DNA of 64,000 nucleotides, from the NCBI GenBank assembly GCA_030429005.1, contig JAUIDP010000008.1, positions 1-64,000 of the forward strand, in the 5' to 3' direction. Positions 42,429-50,170 of the stretch are shown here, piece by piece. This DNA is from Gammaproteobacteria bacterium (GTDB taxonomy: Bacteria > Pseudomonadota > Gammaproteobacteria > Steroidobacterales > Woeseiaceae). Both the position numbers and the translations under genes were made by a program. The notes beneath the pieces were generated by a model, which ran no database searches, was not told the DNA's origin, and saw only the letters and a list, made by a program, of their open reading frames with translations. Within the stretch, counting starts at the first letter, position 1, and each line of letters begins with the position of its first letter.

Positions 42429-42698
42429 CTAGCGACGCAGCAGTGTGCTCACCAGGACGCCTGCCGCAAATGCGATGCCGGCCGACGTAACGGGTCGTTC
42501 CCTGACGAAGGACTCCATCTTCTCGAGCGACTCGTCAATCTGGTCGCGCGCCTTCTCCTGGGTTGCTTCAACCTTGTTGCCGGCATTCGCTGCTGTTTCG
42601 CGAATTTTCATCTCCACCGGCCCTGCCTTCGCAGCAGTCTCGTCGATGACGTCGTGTGCCGTCTTGGCAACGCGCGTCGTTGTTGTTGCCTTGCTCAT
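42429..42698 (-). CDS. DUF883 (ElaB/YqjD) inner-membrane ribosome-associated protein
   Basis: 89 aa. A long amphipathic helix with repeats (KTAHDVIDETAAK, AANAGNKVEATQEKARDQIDESLEKMESFVRERP) ends with the C-terminal glycine-zipper membrane anchor TSAGIAFAAGVLVSTLLRR. The family (ElaB, YqjD, YgaM) tethers ribosomes to the membrane in stationary phase. It lies second in the sigma-54 unit, after DUF1328. Confidence 0.85.
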   Translation of the reverse strand: MSKATTTTRVAKTAHDVIDETAAKAGPVEMKIRETAANAGNKVEATQEKARDQIDESLEKMESFVRERPVTSAGIAFAAGVLVSTLLRR

Positions 42699-42992: not shown

Positions 42993-43009
42993 TGCAGATA
43001 CCGTGCCAA
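42993..43009 (-). promoter_or_regulatory. Sigma-54 promoter for the DUF1328-to-AI-2E unit
   Basis: Minus-strand TTGGCACG-GTAT-CTGCA fits YTGGCACG-N4-TTGCW with one change; GG and GC are 12 bp apart as required. The expected start is near 42982, leaving a leader of about 60 nt to ATG 42920. Confidence 0.8.
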
Positions 43010-43171: not shown

Positions 43172-43188
43172 TTGGCATGCAGATTGCA
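43172..43188 (+). promoter_or_regulatory. Sigma-54 promoter for the BON/CsbD unit
   Basis: TTGGCATG-CAGA-TTGCA matches the -24/-12 consensus at all but one base, with GG-to-GC spacing of 12. The expected start is near 43199, about 60 bp before ATG 43260. Confidence 0.8.
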
Positions 43189-44228: not shown

Positions 44229-44627
44229 TCAGGCCGCAGCGGCAATCGCCTCGGCGAGCCTGGCCAGTGAAATGGGTTTGCGAAAATAGCGAAACACGGC
44301 GAGGTCGGACGTCGCATCCACGAGCTCGTCGATTGGATGTGCTGTAACAAAGATAACCGGCGTCGCATACCGGCCCTGGATCTCACGGGCAACGTCCGCG
44401 CCGTTGCCGCCCTTCCCCAGTCGCCAGTCACAAACAAGCACGTCTATATCGCTCGTTTCCGCCTGCCGGATCGCTGCTTCTGCATCCGCAGCAGTCAGCA
44501 CTTCGTAACCGCAATGCGACAGGTACAGACGACTGGCCTCGCGCGCATTCGGTTCGTCTTCTACGACCAGCACTTTCGGCTGGGCGGTGTTGCGTTCGGG
44601 TCCGCTGTTGGCCTCGGTCAGATTCAT
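44229..44627 (-). CDS. Single-domain response regulator (receiver only)
   Basis: 132 aa. CheY-like receiver with acidic pocket VVEDEPN, phospho-acceptor Asp67 in VLVCDWRLG, Thr in VIFVTAH and Lys in YFRKPIS. It has no output domain. It lies 6 bp downstream of the sigma-54 activator gene on the same strand and is probably a phosphate sink or relay for the LOV kinase. Confidence 0.88.
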   Translation of the reverse strand: MNLTEANSGPERNTAQPKVLVVEDEPNAREASRLYLSHCGYEVLTAADAEAAIRQAETSDIDVLVCDWRLGKGGNGADVAREIQGRYATPVIFVTAHPIDELVDATSDLAVFRYFRKPISLARLAEAIAAAA

Positions 44628-44633
44628 ACGGAA

Positions 44634-45962
44634 TCAACCCTTACCGACCTGGTTGTCGGCGTTCTCGTCTTCGTATTCACGTAACCTATTATACAAAGTT
44701 TTGAGACTCACCCCGAGACTGGCAGCCGCTGCCTTTTTATCGCCCTTGTACTGTTCGAGCGTCGCGAGGATGAGATCCTTCTCCACATCGGCAATCGATC
44801 GGCCGACTCGAATTCCCTCGACATCGCCCGGCAGTGCATCGTCAAACTGCTCCGGCGCCTGGACGACACCATCGTTTGCCATGATGTAGGCGCGGTGCAC
44901 AGTATGTTTCAACTCCCTGACGTTGCCTGGCCACGTGTGCTTTTCGAGAGCGTCCAGCGCCTCTGCGGAAAAACGGTGCTCGGTATCGTTGCTGGCATTG
45001 AGCTGTTGCAGAAAATGTTCGGCAAGCAGCGTGACGTCACCCTGCCGCTCTCGCAGCGGTGGCAAGCTAATGGGAAACACACGCAACCGAAAATACAGGT
45101 CTTCTCGCAGTTTGCCGTCCTTGACCGCCTGTGCCGGATCGCGATTGGTAGCAGCAATCAAGCGCACATTGACATCGAATTCCTGTTCGGCACCGACGCG
45201 CAATACACGGCTCGTTTCCAGGACACGCAACAGGTGTGTCTGCATCTCGGTCGGCATCTCGGTGATTTCGTCGAGAAACAGCGTGCCGTCATTGGCACGT
45301 TCGAAGAAGCCGGCGTGCCGCTTGTTGGCGCCGGTAAAACTGCCTTTCTCGTGGCCGAACAGCTGGCTCGACACCAGTTCGGCCGACAATCCACCGCAAT
45401 TGACCGGCACAAACGAGCCGTCAAGATCGCTCAAGCGATGGATGGCATCGGCGACCAGTTCTTTGCCGGTTCCACTCTCGCCCTGGATGAAGACCGTGCT
45501 GTCTGTCGGTGCCACCTGCTTGATCTGGTCGAAAACCGCACGCATCGTATCGCTGGCACCGAGCAGCTGGCCGAGCCGCGCATCATCTTCATCGATCGCG
45601 TCATCGGCAGAACTGGCGACCGCGTTCAGCAGCCCGATCAGATCGCGGGGCTCGATCGGTTTTTTCATATAGCTGACGCCGTCGCCGGCCATTCCGCCGA
45701 TCAGCGACTTGATGCCTGAATGACCGGTAATAATGACGATCTTCTGTGGACGTTTTTCCGTAAACGCGTCCAGTAATTCCAGACCGCTGCCGTCGGGCAA
45801 CATCAGGTCGAGAAGTAATACGTCAGGAACACCTTTTGCCAGTGCCTGGCGCGCTGCCGCAAGTGTGTTTGCAGTGACAACGCCATGATCCTGCAGTCGC
45901 AGATACTCTGCGAGCCCGCTGGTAAACCCCGGTTCGTCGTCAACGATCAGTATTTGCGCCAT
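44634..45962 (-). CDS. NtrC-class sigma-54-dependent response regulator
   Basis: 442 aa. Receiver domain (residues 1-120, IVDDEPG, Asp52 in LLLDLMLP, KKPIEP). AAA+ domain (about 140-370) with Walker A GESGTGKE, the sigma-54 contact loop KGSFTGA (the usual GAFTGA with Ser for Ala), Walker B GTLFLDEI and the R-finger region LREDLYFRLRVFPI. FIS-type HTH at the end (ATLEQYKGDKKAAAASLGVSLKTLYNRL). It activates -24/-12 promoters after phosphorylation. Four such promoters flank it; divergent from the LOV kinase. Confidence 0.93.
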   Translation of the reverse strand: MAQILIVDDEPGFTSGLAEYLRLQDHGVVTANTLAAARQALAKGVPDVLLLDLMLPDGSGLELLDAFTEKRPQKIVIITGHSGIKSLIGGMAGDGVSYMKKPIEPRDLIGLLNAVASSADDAIDEDDARLGQLLGASDTMRAVFDQIKQVAPTDSTVFIQGESGTGKELVADAIHRLSDLDGSFVPVNCGGLSAELVSSQLFGHEKGSFTGANKRHAGFFERANDGTLFLDEITEMPTEMQTHLLRVLETSRVLRVGAEQEFDVNVRLIAATNRDPAQAVKDGKLREDLYFRLRVFPISLPPLRERQGDVTLLAEHFLQQLNASNDTEHRFSAEALDALEKHTWPGNVRELKHTVHRAYIMANDGVVQAPEQFDDALPGDVEGIRVGRSIADVEKDLILATLEQYKGDKKAAAASLGVSLKTLYNRLREYEDENADNQVGKG

Positions 45963-46022: not shown

Positions 46023-48053
46023 ATGAATTCAAGCAGCGCACACCTGAGGCAAAGAATCTCCGGCAGGATCTACCTGCTGGCGGCTGCTGTCATTCTGTTG
46101 ACCGCCGGCATCTACCTGTGGGGCTTTCTCGTCGAGCGATACCCGGGCAGCGCGGCCCTGATCGGCCAGGCATCGATGAAGGTCAATACGACCGCCGGTT
46201 TCCTCGTCGCGGGATTGCTGCTGGCGTGCGCGCGGATCCGGCCGCCGTTATTGCAGGGAATCATACGCTGGCTGCTGGCAATACCATTGTTTCTGCTCGG
46301 CGCCCTGACGTTGTTCCAGTACGTCAGCGGCGTCGACCTGCGCCTCGACCAGATGCTCGCGGCAGCGCCCAGGTATGAAGCACTGACGTCGTCGCCCGGA
46401 CGCATGTCACCGGTCAGTGCCAGCGGCTTCATGATGTTTGCACTGGCGATAATGATCGATCACTGGCAAACCGGTGTAGCCAGGGGCTGGAGCCGCACCT
46501 TTGCGACGATTCTGACGCTGGTCGCACTGACATCGCTGCTCGGCTATGCCTACGGCGCCCCGGCGTTGTACCTCGGCACCGGCGAAACGACCGCAATGTC
46601 ATTGCTGGCATCCATCCTGTTCCTGGTCCTCGGGATCGGCACGATCTGGATCCGCGCAGAGTACGGCCTGCCCGCGATGCTGGCCGAACAGTCTGTCGTC
46701 GGCACGCACATTCGCGCTTTGATTCCGATGGTGGTTGGTGCACCGATTCTTGTCGGTGCTGCAGTCGCCGCTGGCTACAGCCGTCACTACGAAGGACCGT
46801 TCGGCATTGCACTGACCGTGCTGGGTTCGGTTGTGGCCGCCGGCCTGGTTGCCGTGGTGTCGATAATCCTGCTGCGGCGCGCCGAAAGCGAGCTGTACAT
46901 CAAGGACCGGGCACTTGCCGCTACGACCAACGGCGTCATCATTACCGACCACCGTCACCCGAACGAGCCAATTGTTTTTGTGAATGCAGCCTTCAGCGAG
47001 ATCACCGGCTACGCGGAGGACGAGACTATTGGCCGCAACTGCCGGTTCCTGAACCGGGGCGCAGAGAACCCCGCGGACGTGCTGGCCGAGCTGCGCGACT
47101 GCATCAGGAATCCATGCCGCGCAACCTTTGAATTGCAGAATATGCGCAGCGATGGCAACAAGTTCTGGAATAGGCTGAGTATTGCGCCGATCGAGGACTA
47201 TGAAGGCAAGGTGACCCACTTCGTCGGGGTCATGGTCGACATCAGCGATCGCCGCGCACAGGAAACCCGGCTCAGTGATGCCCTGGATGAGGCACGCACT
47301 GCCAATGACATGCGCAACACGTTCGTGCGCCTCGTCAGCCATGAGTTGCGAACACCGCTAAACGCGGCACTGACATGGATTCGGCTACTGGAAGTAGACG
47401 ACTCGCCCGGCATCCGTGACAAGGGGCTGAAAGTTGTCGCACAGAGCATCGATTCGCAGTCGCGCCTGATTGACGACCTCGTGGATGTCACGCGATTCAC
47501 GGCTGCAGGGGTACGGCTGCAGCTGGACGATGTCGACGTCGCAGAAATTCTCAGGACGACCACCGAGGAATTGCGGCCATCGATCGAAGTCGACCACGAT
47601 TTCATTGTGGAAATCGACGATGGTGACTACAGCGGCAGGATGGATCCGTTGCGTATTCAACAGGTGCTGCGCAATCTCGTCACGAATGCGAACAAGTACA
47701 CGCCTGCAGGCGGTCGCATCCAGGTGCGCCTCACAGCCGATGATGCGAAGATACATTTCTACGTTGTCGACAACGGCAAGGGCCTGACGCAGGACCACAT
47801 CGACAATATCTTCGAGCCGTTCTGGCGTGCCGATTCCCACCAACCCGGCCTTGGCGTCGGTCTGTCCATCGTGGCCGCCCTGGTCAGCGCGCATTCCGGC
47901 ACGATAGTCGCGCACAGTGACGGCCCCGGCCAGGGCAGCACATTCAAGGTCCGCTTGCCGCGACAGGCCAGTGCCGCAGAAATTGCAGTGACACACGATG
48001 CGGACGCGCTCAGCATGACCGGCACGCACGCCGCGGCAGTCGATCAAAGCTGA
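46023..48053 (+). CDS. Membrane LOV/PAS-domain sensor histidine kinase
   Basis: 676 aa. Residues 10-290 hold about eight membrane helices of unknown sensory type. A PAS domain of LOV class follows at about 298-402: FVNAAFSEITGY, then GRNCRFLN with the cysteine at 340 that forms the flavin adduct in true LOV domains, the flavin-contact Asn segment NMRSDGNKFWN and VTHFVGVMVDIS. Kinase: His440 in VSHELRTPLNAAL, ATP lid with DNGKGLTQ and GVGLSIVAALVSAHSG. Partner of the adjacent response regulators. Two Gln positions differ from canonical LOV, so light sensing is plausible, not proven. Confidence 0.88.
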   Translation: MNSSSAHLRQRISGRIYLLAAAVILLTAGIYLWGFLVERYPGSAALIGQASMKVNTTAGFLVAGLLLACARIRPPLLQGIIRWLLAIPLFLLGALTLFQYVSGVDLRLDQMLAAAPRYEALTSSPGRMSPVSASGFMMFALAIMIDHWQTGVARGWSRTFATILTLVALTSLLGYAYGAPALYLGTGETTAMSLLASILFLVLGIGTIWIRAEYGLPAMLAEQSVVGTHIRALIPMVVGAPILVGAAVAAGYSRHYEGPFGIALTVLGSVVAAGLVAVVSIILLRRAESELYIKDRALAATTNGVIITDHRHPNEPIVFVNAAFSEITGYAEDETIGRNCRFLNRGAENPADVLAELRDCIRNPCRATFELQNMRSDGNKFWNRLSIAPIEDYEGKVTHFVGVMVDISDRRAQETRLSDALDEARTANDMRNTFVRLVSHELRTPLNAALTWIRLLEVDDSPGIRDKGLKVVAQSIDSQSRLIDDLVDVTRFTAAGVRLQLDDVDVAEILRTTTEELRPSIEVDHDFIVEIDDGDYSGRMDPLRIQQVLRNLVTNANKYTPAGGRIQVRLTADDAKIHFYVVDNGKGLTQDHIDNIFEPFWRADSHQPGLGVGLSIVAALVSAHSGTIVAHSDGPGQGSTFKVRLPRQASAAEIAVTHDADALSMTGTHAAAVDQS

Positions 48054-49294: not shown

Positions 49295-49311
49295 TGCAGG
49301 TTTCGTGCCAG
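49295..49311 (-). promoter_or_regulatory. Sigma-54 promoter for the cardiolipin synthase gene
   Basis: Minus-strand CTGGCACG-AAAC-CTGCA, one change from YTGGCACG-N4-TTGCW, GG-to-GC spacing 12. The expected start is near 49284. Confidence 0.8.
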
Positions 49312-49462: not shown

Positions 49463-49479
49463 GTGGCACGGTCCTTGCT
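49463..49479 (+). promoter_or_regulatory. Sigma-54 promoter for the lipoprotein/PA2779/amidoligase unit
   Basis: GTGGCACG-GTCC-TTGCT: a perfect TGGCACG-N4-TTGC core with spacing 12. The expected start is near 49490, about 68 bp before ATG 49558. Confidence 0.85.
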
Positions 49480-49786: not shown

Positions 49787-50170
49787 ATGAAGACAACAGC
49801 GTGCAGAAATTTTGTCGCGAGCATCACTTCGATCGCCATTCTCAGCCTGGGGCTGTCCCCGGTAGCAACGGCTGGCGTAATCGATACGCAACAACTGATC
49901 GACGCCGAACAACGGCGCGAGACTATTTCGCGTATCGAAGCCACTCTCCTGCGTGACGATGTCGCGCAACAACTGGTTGAGCATGGAGTCGATCCGGAAG
50001 ATGTCCTGGCACGCGTCGGCAGTCTCACGAATGCCGAGCTCATGGCACTGGACGGCCAGATCAGCGAGCAGGTTGCAGGTGGCAGTGCCCTGGGCGTCAT
50101 AGGCGCTGTGTTCCTCGTGCTCCTGATACTTGAAGTGGTTGGTGTAACCGACGTCTTCAAGTCGATCTAG
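49787..50170 (+). CDS. PA2779-family protein
   Basis: 127 aa. Signal peptide ending ATAGV, then an amphipathic helix (TQQLIDAEQRRETISRIEATLLRDDVAQQLVEHGVDPEDV) and a C-terminal membrane helix (ALGVIGAVFLVLLILEVVGVTDVF). This is the PA2779 layout, a conserved protein found just upstream of a PA2778-type cysteine peptidase. The role is unknown; the small helical protein may be the peptidase's substrate. Confidence 0.85.
   Translation: MKTTACRNFVASITSIAILSLGLSPVATAGVIDTQQLIDAEQRRETISRIEATLLRDDVAQQLVEHGVDPEDVLARVGSLTNAELMALDGQISEQVAGGSALGVIGAVFLVLLILEVVGVTDVFKSI

Follow-up and report, generated by a model that had tools for sequence, protein, structure and literature searches.

Whether a LOV domain can go on working as a sensor once both of its conserved glutamines have been replaced is the question raised by a histidine kinase gene in a stretch of 64,000 nucleotides (the window) from a Gammaproteobacteria bacterium of the Woeseiaceae (assembly GCA_030429005.1, contig JAUIDP010000008.1, positions 1 to 64,000 of the forward strand). 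A preliminary description had taken the PAS domain of this kinase to be LOV-like, with the photoactive cysteine retained and two glutamines altered, and had suggested that it could feed a light or redox signal into a sigma-54 envelope regulon. The residues named there (the cysteine, the two replacements and both asparagines of NMRSDGNKFWN) were all verified at their codons, and the domain coordinates given (46920-47250) agree with those found here. The relevant features of the kinase gene are as follows.

46023-48053, + strand: membrane-anchored LOV histidine kinase of 676 amino acids (P0001), an open reading frame with Pfam matches to PAS_9, HisKA and HATPase_c and with five orthologues
46056-46889, + strand: membrane domain at the N-terminus (residues 12-289) with about eight helices (hydropathy and a low-confidence model)
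46917-47252, + strand: LOV domain, about residues 299-410 (sequence search, model, Foldseek and motif-free profiles)
47040-47042, + strand: Cys340 in GRNCRFLN, at the place of the adduct-forming cysteine of LOV domains; codon TGC in the window, Cys invariant in 6/6 orthologues
47052-47054, + strand: Asn344, replacing Gln (Q66 of YtvA); Asn in 6/6
47139-47141, + strand: Asn373 (N94 of YtvA), in NMRSDGNKFWN; invariant in 6/6
47169-47171, + strand: Asn383 (N104 of YtvA), in NMRSDGNKFWN; invariant in 6/6
47232-47234, + strand: Met404 in GVMVD, where canonical LOV domains have the signalling Gln (Q123 of YtvA); residues across the six orthologues are M, V, L, A, I and V
47310-47966, + strand: HisKA (residues 430-493, phospho-acceptor His440) and HATPase_c (residues 541-648), by Pfam

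When 296 genomes of the order and 107 of the family were searched, five orthologues of the same build were identified, four from the same family (G647, G530, G463 and G676) and one from another family of the order (G469); over the whole length, they share 49-54% identity with the window protein. Within the family, the kinase was present in 5 of the 107 genomes, the window's own included, while another family genome (G005) passed the search threshold on account of a different and shorter LOV protein that carries the standard motif. Many LOV domains were also found in samples of the class (369 genomes) and the phylum (398 genomes), which contain few genomes from the window's order; the best of these scored 144 and 140 bits, as compared to 222 bits for the window's own domain. 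When genome contigs were scanned with the whole kinase, three loci were found, which matched in or near the kinase core only, and none was a LOV orthologue.

The Pfam matches of the kinase cover residues 303-409 (PAS_9), 430-493 (HisKA) and 541-648 (HATPase_c), and the core keeps the His and the key ATP-site motif residues in all six proteins, as in a sensor histidine kinase. Ahead of the LOV domain lies the membrane domain, for which neither Pfam nor NCBIfam contained a matching family. Hydropathy gave seven stretches for this domain in the window protein, and every one of the five orthologues had eight, although the method is a rough guide, given one clearly false stretch inside the kinase part in four of the six proteins. 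The full-length model (mean pLDDT 61.8, a low confidence), used alongside hydropathy solely for a rough helix count, had eight long helices in the N-terminal part, with the last membrane helix continuing as far as the LOV domain. TSSPGRM and SMK.NT are among the conserved stretches of the membrane domain, and a weaker relative of this domain, with 27% identity, lies within an open frame of 1327 residues in G463 (L163). Downstream of the LOV domain, 34 residues separate the phospho-acceptor His from the Asp of the DIT motif in all six orthologues, a constant spacing that would be expected for a signal passing through a coiled coil of set register. A rule that would give the sign of a light response from linker length was sought in the literature, but the passages found allowed no sign to be safely derived.

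Judged by its sequence, the kinase domain belongs to the LOV family, as the preliminary description had claimed. A phmmer search of PDB sequences gave 154 distinct matches at E up to 0.001, and the best 60 of these were led by LOV domains of Meiothermus ruber (4.2e-29) and Chloroflexus aggregans, with phototropin, YtvA and further LOV entries after these. Against NCBIfam, the domain alone scored 119 bits for the YtvA family and 108 bits for the blue-light-activated histidine kinases, both below the whole-protein cut-offs, and 61 bits for the general PAS box, above the cut-off. The whole kinase scored 122 bits for the YtvA family (NF052652, cut-off 250) and 106 bits for BluLightHisKinLov (NF052306, cut-off 450), with the LOV part alone contributing; as both scores are below the curated cut-offs, the kinase is assigned to neither family. 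The predicted structure agrees with the LOV assignment: a model of the domain built from 62 aligned domains had a pLDDT of 94.4, the best 50 of 573 Foldseek matches (E up to 0.001) were all LOV domains or LOV-derived, the best match reached a TM of 0.93, and MrLOVe was matched at an E of 4.7e-15. A structural aligner gave a Z of about 21 to Brucella LOV-HK and of 19-21 to LOV domains; the PAS domain of the EAG1 channel followed at 18.9, and the fold alone can therefore not decide between LOV and PAS.

The possibility that this is an ordinary PAS domain with a chance cysteine is thus favored to some degree by the matches to general PAS models above their cut-offs and by the indecisive fold, but it is very improbable, as the sequence searches, profiles and tree all group the domain with LOV. 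In a tree of 99 domains, the 89 LOV-like rows, which include the six orthologues, were separated from 10 PAS rows with a support of 100/99, where the PAS rows, having been caught with the same profile as the LOV rows, represent LOV-near PAS domains. The six orthologues formed one clade (100/98), whose placing beside other LOV-like domains was weakly supported (90/74). With the motif columns removed, the six orthologues scored 119-129 bits to the canonical LOV profile and 77-95 bits to the profile of PAS rows, of which 21, again LOV-near ones, were used in this comparison, and a quick motif-free tree still kept the three groups separate, with modest support (70 for canonical LOV, 87 for PAS). 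The assignment is hence independent of the motif. Moreover, the missing last-strand glutamine bars the term canonical rather than the term LOV, since natural Gln-less members of the family have been published.

Conservation among the orthologues indicates which parts of the pocket have been retained. The nine LOV-defining residues of Dietler et al. are G59, N61, C62, R63, F64, L65, Q66, N94 and N104 in YtvA numbering, and the window domain keeps eight of these, the exception being Q66, replaced by Asn344; it is thereby among the domains selected by the Gln-less LOV filter of Dietler 2022 (eight of nine residues and no Gln123). All nine columns were invariant in the six orthologues, as compared to 34 of the 112 domain columns (hypergeometric p 9.5e-6, calculated on columns that are not independent, seven of the nine being within one motif). 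The motif NCRFLN was found in every orthologue, always without the last-strand Gln, and the last-strand site carried five different hydrophobic residues among the six. The Cys340 codon is TGC in five genes and TGT in one, and the Asn344 codon is AAC or AAT, showing that silent change has occurred at both. At the phosphate side, the Arg that corresponds to R79 of YtvA, which has been named as a flavin ligand (PMC3836802), is Arg in five orthologues and His in one. As both substitutions are common to all six orthologues, they represent a trait of the lineage and not a chance variant. The invariant Cys and Asn columns next to a drifting last-strand site fit a pocket that may still hold flavin and still use the cysteine, and that would no longer use the last-strand glutamine.

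Substitutions of this kind have precedents. About 350 natural Gln-less LOV cases have been recognized by sequence, with the last-strand Gln mostly replaced by aliphatic residues, and receptors of this type retain signalling, in many cases at reduced strength (PMC9098866, 2022). In Mesorhizobium loti, a LOV diguanylate cyclase that has Met in place of the Gln dropped from 145 to 30 Miller units in blue light, and behaved similarly when the Met was turned into Gln (PMC9098866); a missing Gln therefore need not abolish signal transmission. For the other place, a scan of a flavin reporter found that changing Gln66 to Leu abolished function, and that function was retained when Gln123 was changed to Leu (PMC4041573). 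EL222 from Erythrobacter provides a natural LOV domain in which the Q66 place is changed, to Ala79, with adduct decay measured, and the passage on it treats this place alone, while the window domain is changed at both (PMC4161478). Each substitution alone is therefore preceded, by the Met of M. loti and the Ala of EL222, respectively. No report of both being fixed in one lineage, and no match for NCRFLN as a motif, was found in the literature searched, although relatives could be among the roughly 350 published Gln-less cases.

The neighborhood of the kinase gene suggests to what the domain may be connected, and includes the following features.

42994-43008, - strand: sigma-54 type site TGGCACGGTATCTGC; the gene for a small membrane protein (42429-42698) begins 296 bases downstream of it
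43173-43187, + strand: -24/-12 sigma-54 type site TGGCATGCAGATTGC, ahead of the gene for a BON-domain protein (probable start 43260)
44229-44627, - strand: single-domain response regulator (receiver only), by Pfam; in 8/8 loci compared, the window included
44634-45962, - strand: NtrC-type sigma-54 response regulator (P0002), divergent neighbor of the kinase; Response_reg, Sigma54_activat and HTH_8
49296-49310, - strand: sigma-54 type site TGGCACGAAACCTGC, ahead of the gene for a PLD-family protein (probable start 49255, with 49330 as the start of the longest open reading frame)

The sigma-54 regulator gene lies 60 bases from the kinase gene, in the opposite direction, and is 69-73% identical in six of the seven other loci compared. 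Near the kinase it was found in five of the six orthologue loci, and the single receiver in all six; for the kinase locus of G530 no close match to the regulator was found, although such an absence is no proof, as first-look candidates were scored in part (e.g., 12 of 39). Conversely, G007, whose contig ends just past the PLD gene, and G638 carry the regulator without the LOV kinase in the sequence available. Going by gene linkage, the kinase is likely to have the sigma-54 regulator as its partner, in a pairing that is not strict. A kinase without a Pfam PAS match is encoded in G638 (L155:4394-6115, - strand), near the PLD and sigma-54 regulator genes; its position where the orthologous loci carry the LOV kinase makes a swap of the input protein possible.

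Sites of the sigma-54 type were found upstream of the BON gene in 4/4 regions, of the PLD gene in 4/4 and of the DUF883-like gene in 3/4 (the name for gene 42429-42698 comes from a match below Pfam's cut-off). The score threshold was fixed before the genes were inspected, while the choice of genes, and of a range from 480 bases upstream to 120 downstream, was made with the sites already known, and the total of 11/12 is therefore not an unbiased test. The overall rate would give about 0.7 in 12, and single-base shuffles gave a mean of 0.12 and a maximum of 2. By comparison, sites occurred on the opposite strands of 4/12 target regions, partly because some targets are divergent neighbors, and in 1/21 upstream regions of regulator and kinase genes; across the whole window, with up to two mismatches, there were 55 site matches as compared to 37.5 in shuffles. 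The weight of these sites is in their recurrence at orthologous genes across different genomes. As they were found in 7/8 target regions of loci with the LOV kinase and also in 4/4 of the two loci without it (G007 and G638), the sites go with the regulator and not with the kinase; they would be evidence of a sigma-54 regulon under the regulator, and would bear on the kinase solely through it. BON, PLD and small membrane proteins could, going by their family names, contribute to envelope upkeep. The idea of a sigma-54 envelope regulon is supported by the sites beside envelope-type genes; the linkage of the kinase to the regulator has exceptions. A perfect site, TGGCACGGTCCTTGC, is located at 49464-49478 (+ strand), about 300 bases upstream of a DUF6627 gene at 49787, with genes for a TPR/C39-like peptidase and an amidoligase next in line; none of the seven other loci compared yielded a DUF6627 gene. 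A further perfect site was seen in L084 (3836-3850, - strand).

Taking these observations into consideration, we regard it as reasonably probable that the gene encodes a membrane LOV kinase with a flavin adduct at Cys340 and a Gln-free relay to His440, driving a sigma-54 envelope regulon. Flavin held in the LOV domain would form a light-driven adduct with Cys340. With Met404 at the last-strand site, protonation of the flavin would have to be relayed without a Gln, probably via water or via the contacts of Asn344, Asn373 and Asn383, and the change would then travel through the fixed-length linker to His440. The kinase would in turn set the phosphorylation of neighboring receivers, most likely those of the sigma-54 regulator (44634-45962) and the single receiver (44229-44627), and the sigma-54 regulator would drive the BON, PLD and small membrane-protein genes, which may tend the cell envelope. 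This reading is weakened by the lost function of the Gln66 to Leu reporter, by the His at the R79 place in one orthologue, by the rarity of the kinase within the family, by the exceptions to the linkage and by the late choice of target genes. As to other light-related genes, photolyase was found in 6/6 genomes and, being common in the controls as well (8/14), is weak support for life in light; rhodopsin matched in 0/6 genomes and likewise in none of the controls, so that this absence carries no weight, and BLUF matched in 0/6 genomes and 1/14 controls.

The same pocket could, however, serve a different signal. If reduction of the flavin, by oxygen or redox state, were what the kinase detects, the cysteine adduct would be a side branch and the changed glutamines would tune the flavin potential; the retained pocket would suit flavin in any role, and LOV receptors have been suggested to descend from redox-active flavoproteins (PMC9098866). 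Such a sensor would nevertheless have no evident use for Cys340, which is invariant in all six proteins while the last-strand site takes five residues, and is unlikely for this reason. The domain could also have become blind to light, a LOV-derived PAS domain that dimerises and passes on the real signal, which the membrane domain would sense. Loss of the Gln was accompanied by loss of the Cys among the LOV-like domains collected here, with 21 of the 89 lacking both, which counts against a working LOV domain, and the conserved stretches of the membrane domain would be consistent with a sensing function there. Since a mere relay needs none of the nine LOV-defining columns, their invariance in six proteins (p 9.5e-6 on non-independent columns) argues against this explanation, which we hold to be quite improbable. 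The light-driven kinase set out above, or more broadly a working light or redox sensor of unusual make, is probably what the gene encodes. A bolder version, in which the lineage rebuilt its flavin contacts by fixing Asn at the Q66 place and dispensing with the last Gln, and in which the rerouted light signal and a membrane signal together control the sigma-54 envelope program, is put forward tentatively and may well be too specific.

Compared to known systems, the less usual features of this kinase would be the two Gln changes together, the roughly eight membrane helices at the N-terminus and the linkage to a sigma-54 regulator. LOV domains in histidine kinases are likewise found in Brucella LOV-HK, Erythrobacter EL346 and Meiothermus ruber Mrub_1259, which are among the closest structures; the membrane domain sets the window kinase apart from these, even though natural membrane-bound LOV kinases may exist elsewhere. 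EL222, by comparison, is a soluble LOV-HTH transcription factor. Single changes at both Gln places are represented by engineered CagFbFP variants with solved structures, i.e., Q148 (N, V, H, E, K, R and D) and Q89E, the structure title of the latter naming FMN; these differ in being laboratory mutants of a fluorescent reporter, made in a C85A base construct and without natural signalling. With the Gln-less LOV receptors as described in PMC9098866, the window domain shares the retained LOV residues and the replaced last-strand Gln, to which its lineage adds Asn at Q66 in every orthologue, a membrane anchor and a sigma-54 neighbor. A review from 2019 portrays LOV and phytochrome receptors in particular as cytosolic and soluble (PMC6798134); no membrane-bound LOV histidine kinase was described among the most relevant papers, and those most relevant to LOV kinases, blue light and the envelope made no mention of sigma-54. 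If the proposed reading is correct, the six orthologues, with five residues at the last-strand site and one fixed second change, would provide a natural test case for LOV signalling without the last-strand Gln, light or redox would be tied to envelope upkeep through sigma-54, and membrane input and flavin input would meet in a single kinase.

The 89 LOV-like domains were collected as best matches only, from loci drawn with the window domain, with a profile of five of the six orthologues, or in earlier searches. Among them, 66 have the Cys, and 24 of these 66, the six orthologues included, are without the last Gln, a proportion that is no survey figure given the biased set. The Cys is missing in 21 of the 45 Gln-less domains and in 2 of the 44 with Gln, so that 21 of the 23 Cys-less domains also have no last Gln. 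Asn at the Q66 place was found in two other collected domains, L050, without the last Gln, and L118, with it. A DNA pattern for NCRFLN matched in 49 of the 369 genomes of the class, and 12 of the 30 loci listed were in frame; two of the 12 were LOV domains, i.e., L044, which is the same place as L118 and keeps the last Gln, and L050, which has Ile there, and the pattern matches were set aside as mostly noise. Seven domains from large proteins of family f10 in the same order (L060-L062, L064, L065, L067 and L068) form a separate clade with NCRFLQ and a Leu in place of the last Gln, which by these residues is a further Gln-less LOV lineage. Three LOV-like domains of family f14 (L074, L076 and L082) have lost the Cys and kept the two Asn, and carry Met, His or Tyr where the last Gln would be, and nine domains of family f10 (L066, L069, L072, L073, L075, L077, L079, L080 and L083) have the same Cys-less features; these domains are perhaps flavin sensors that operate without an adduct.
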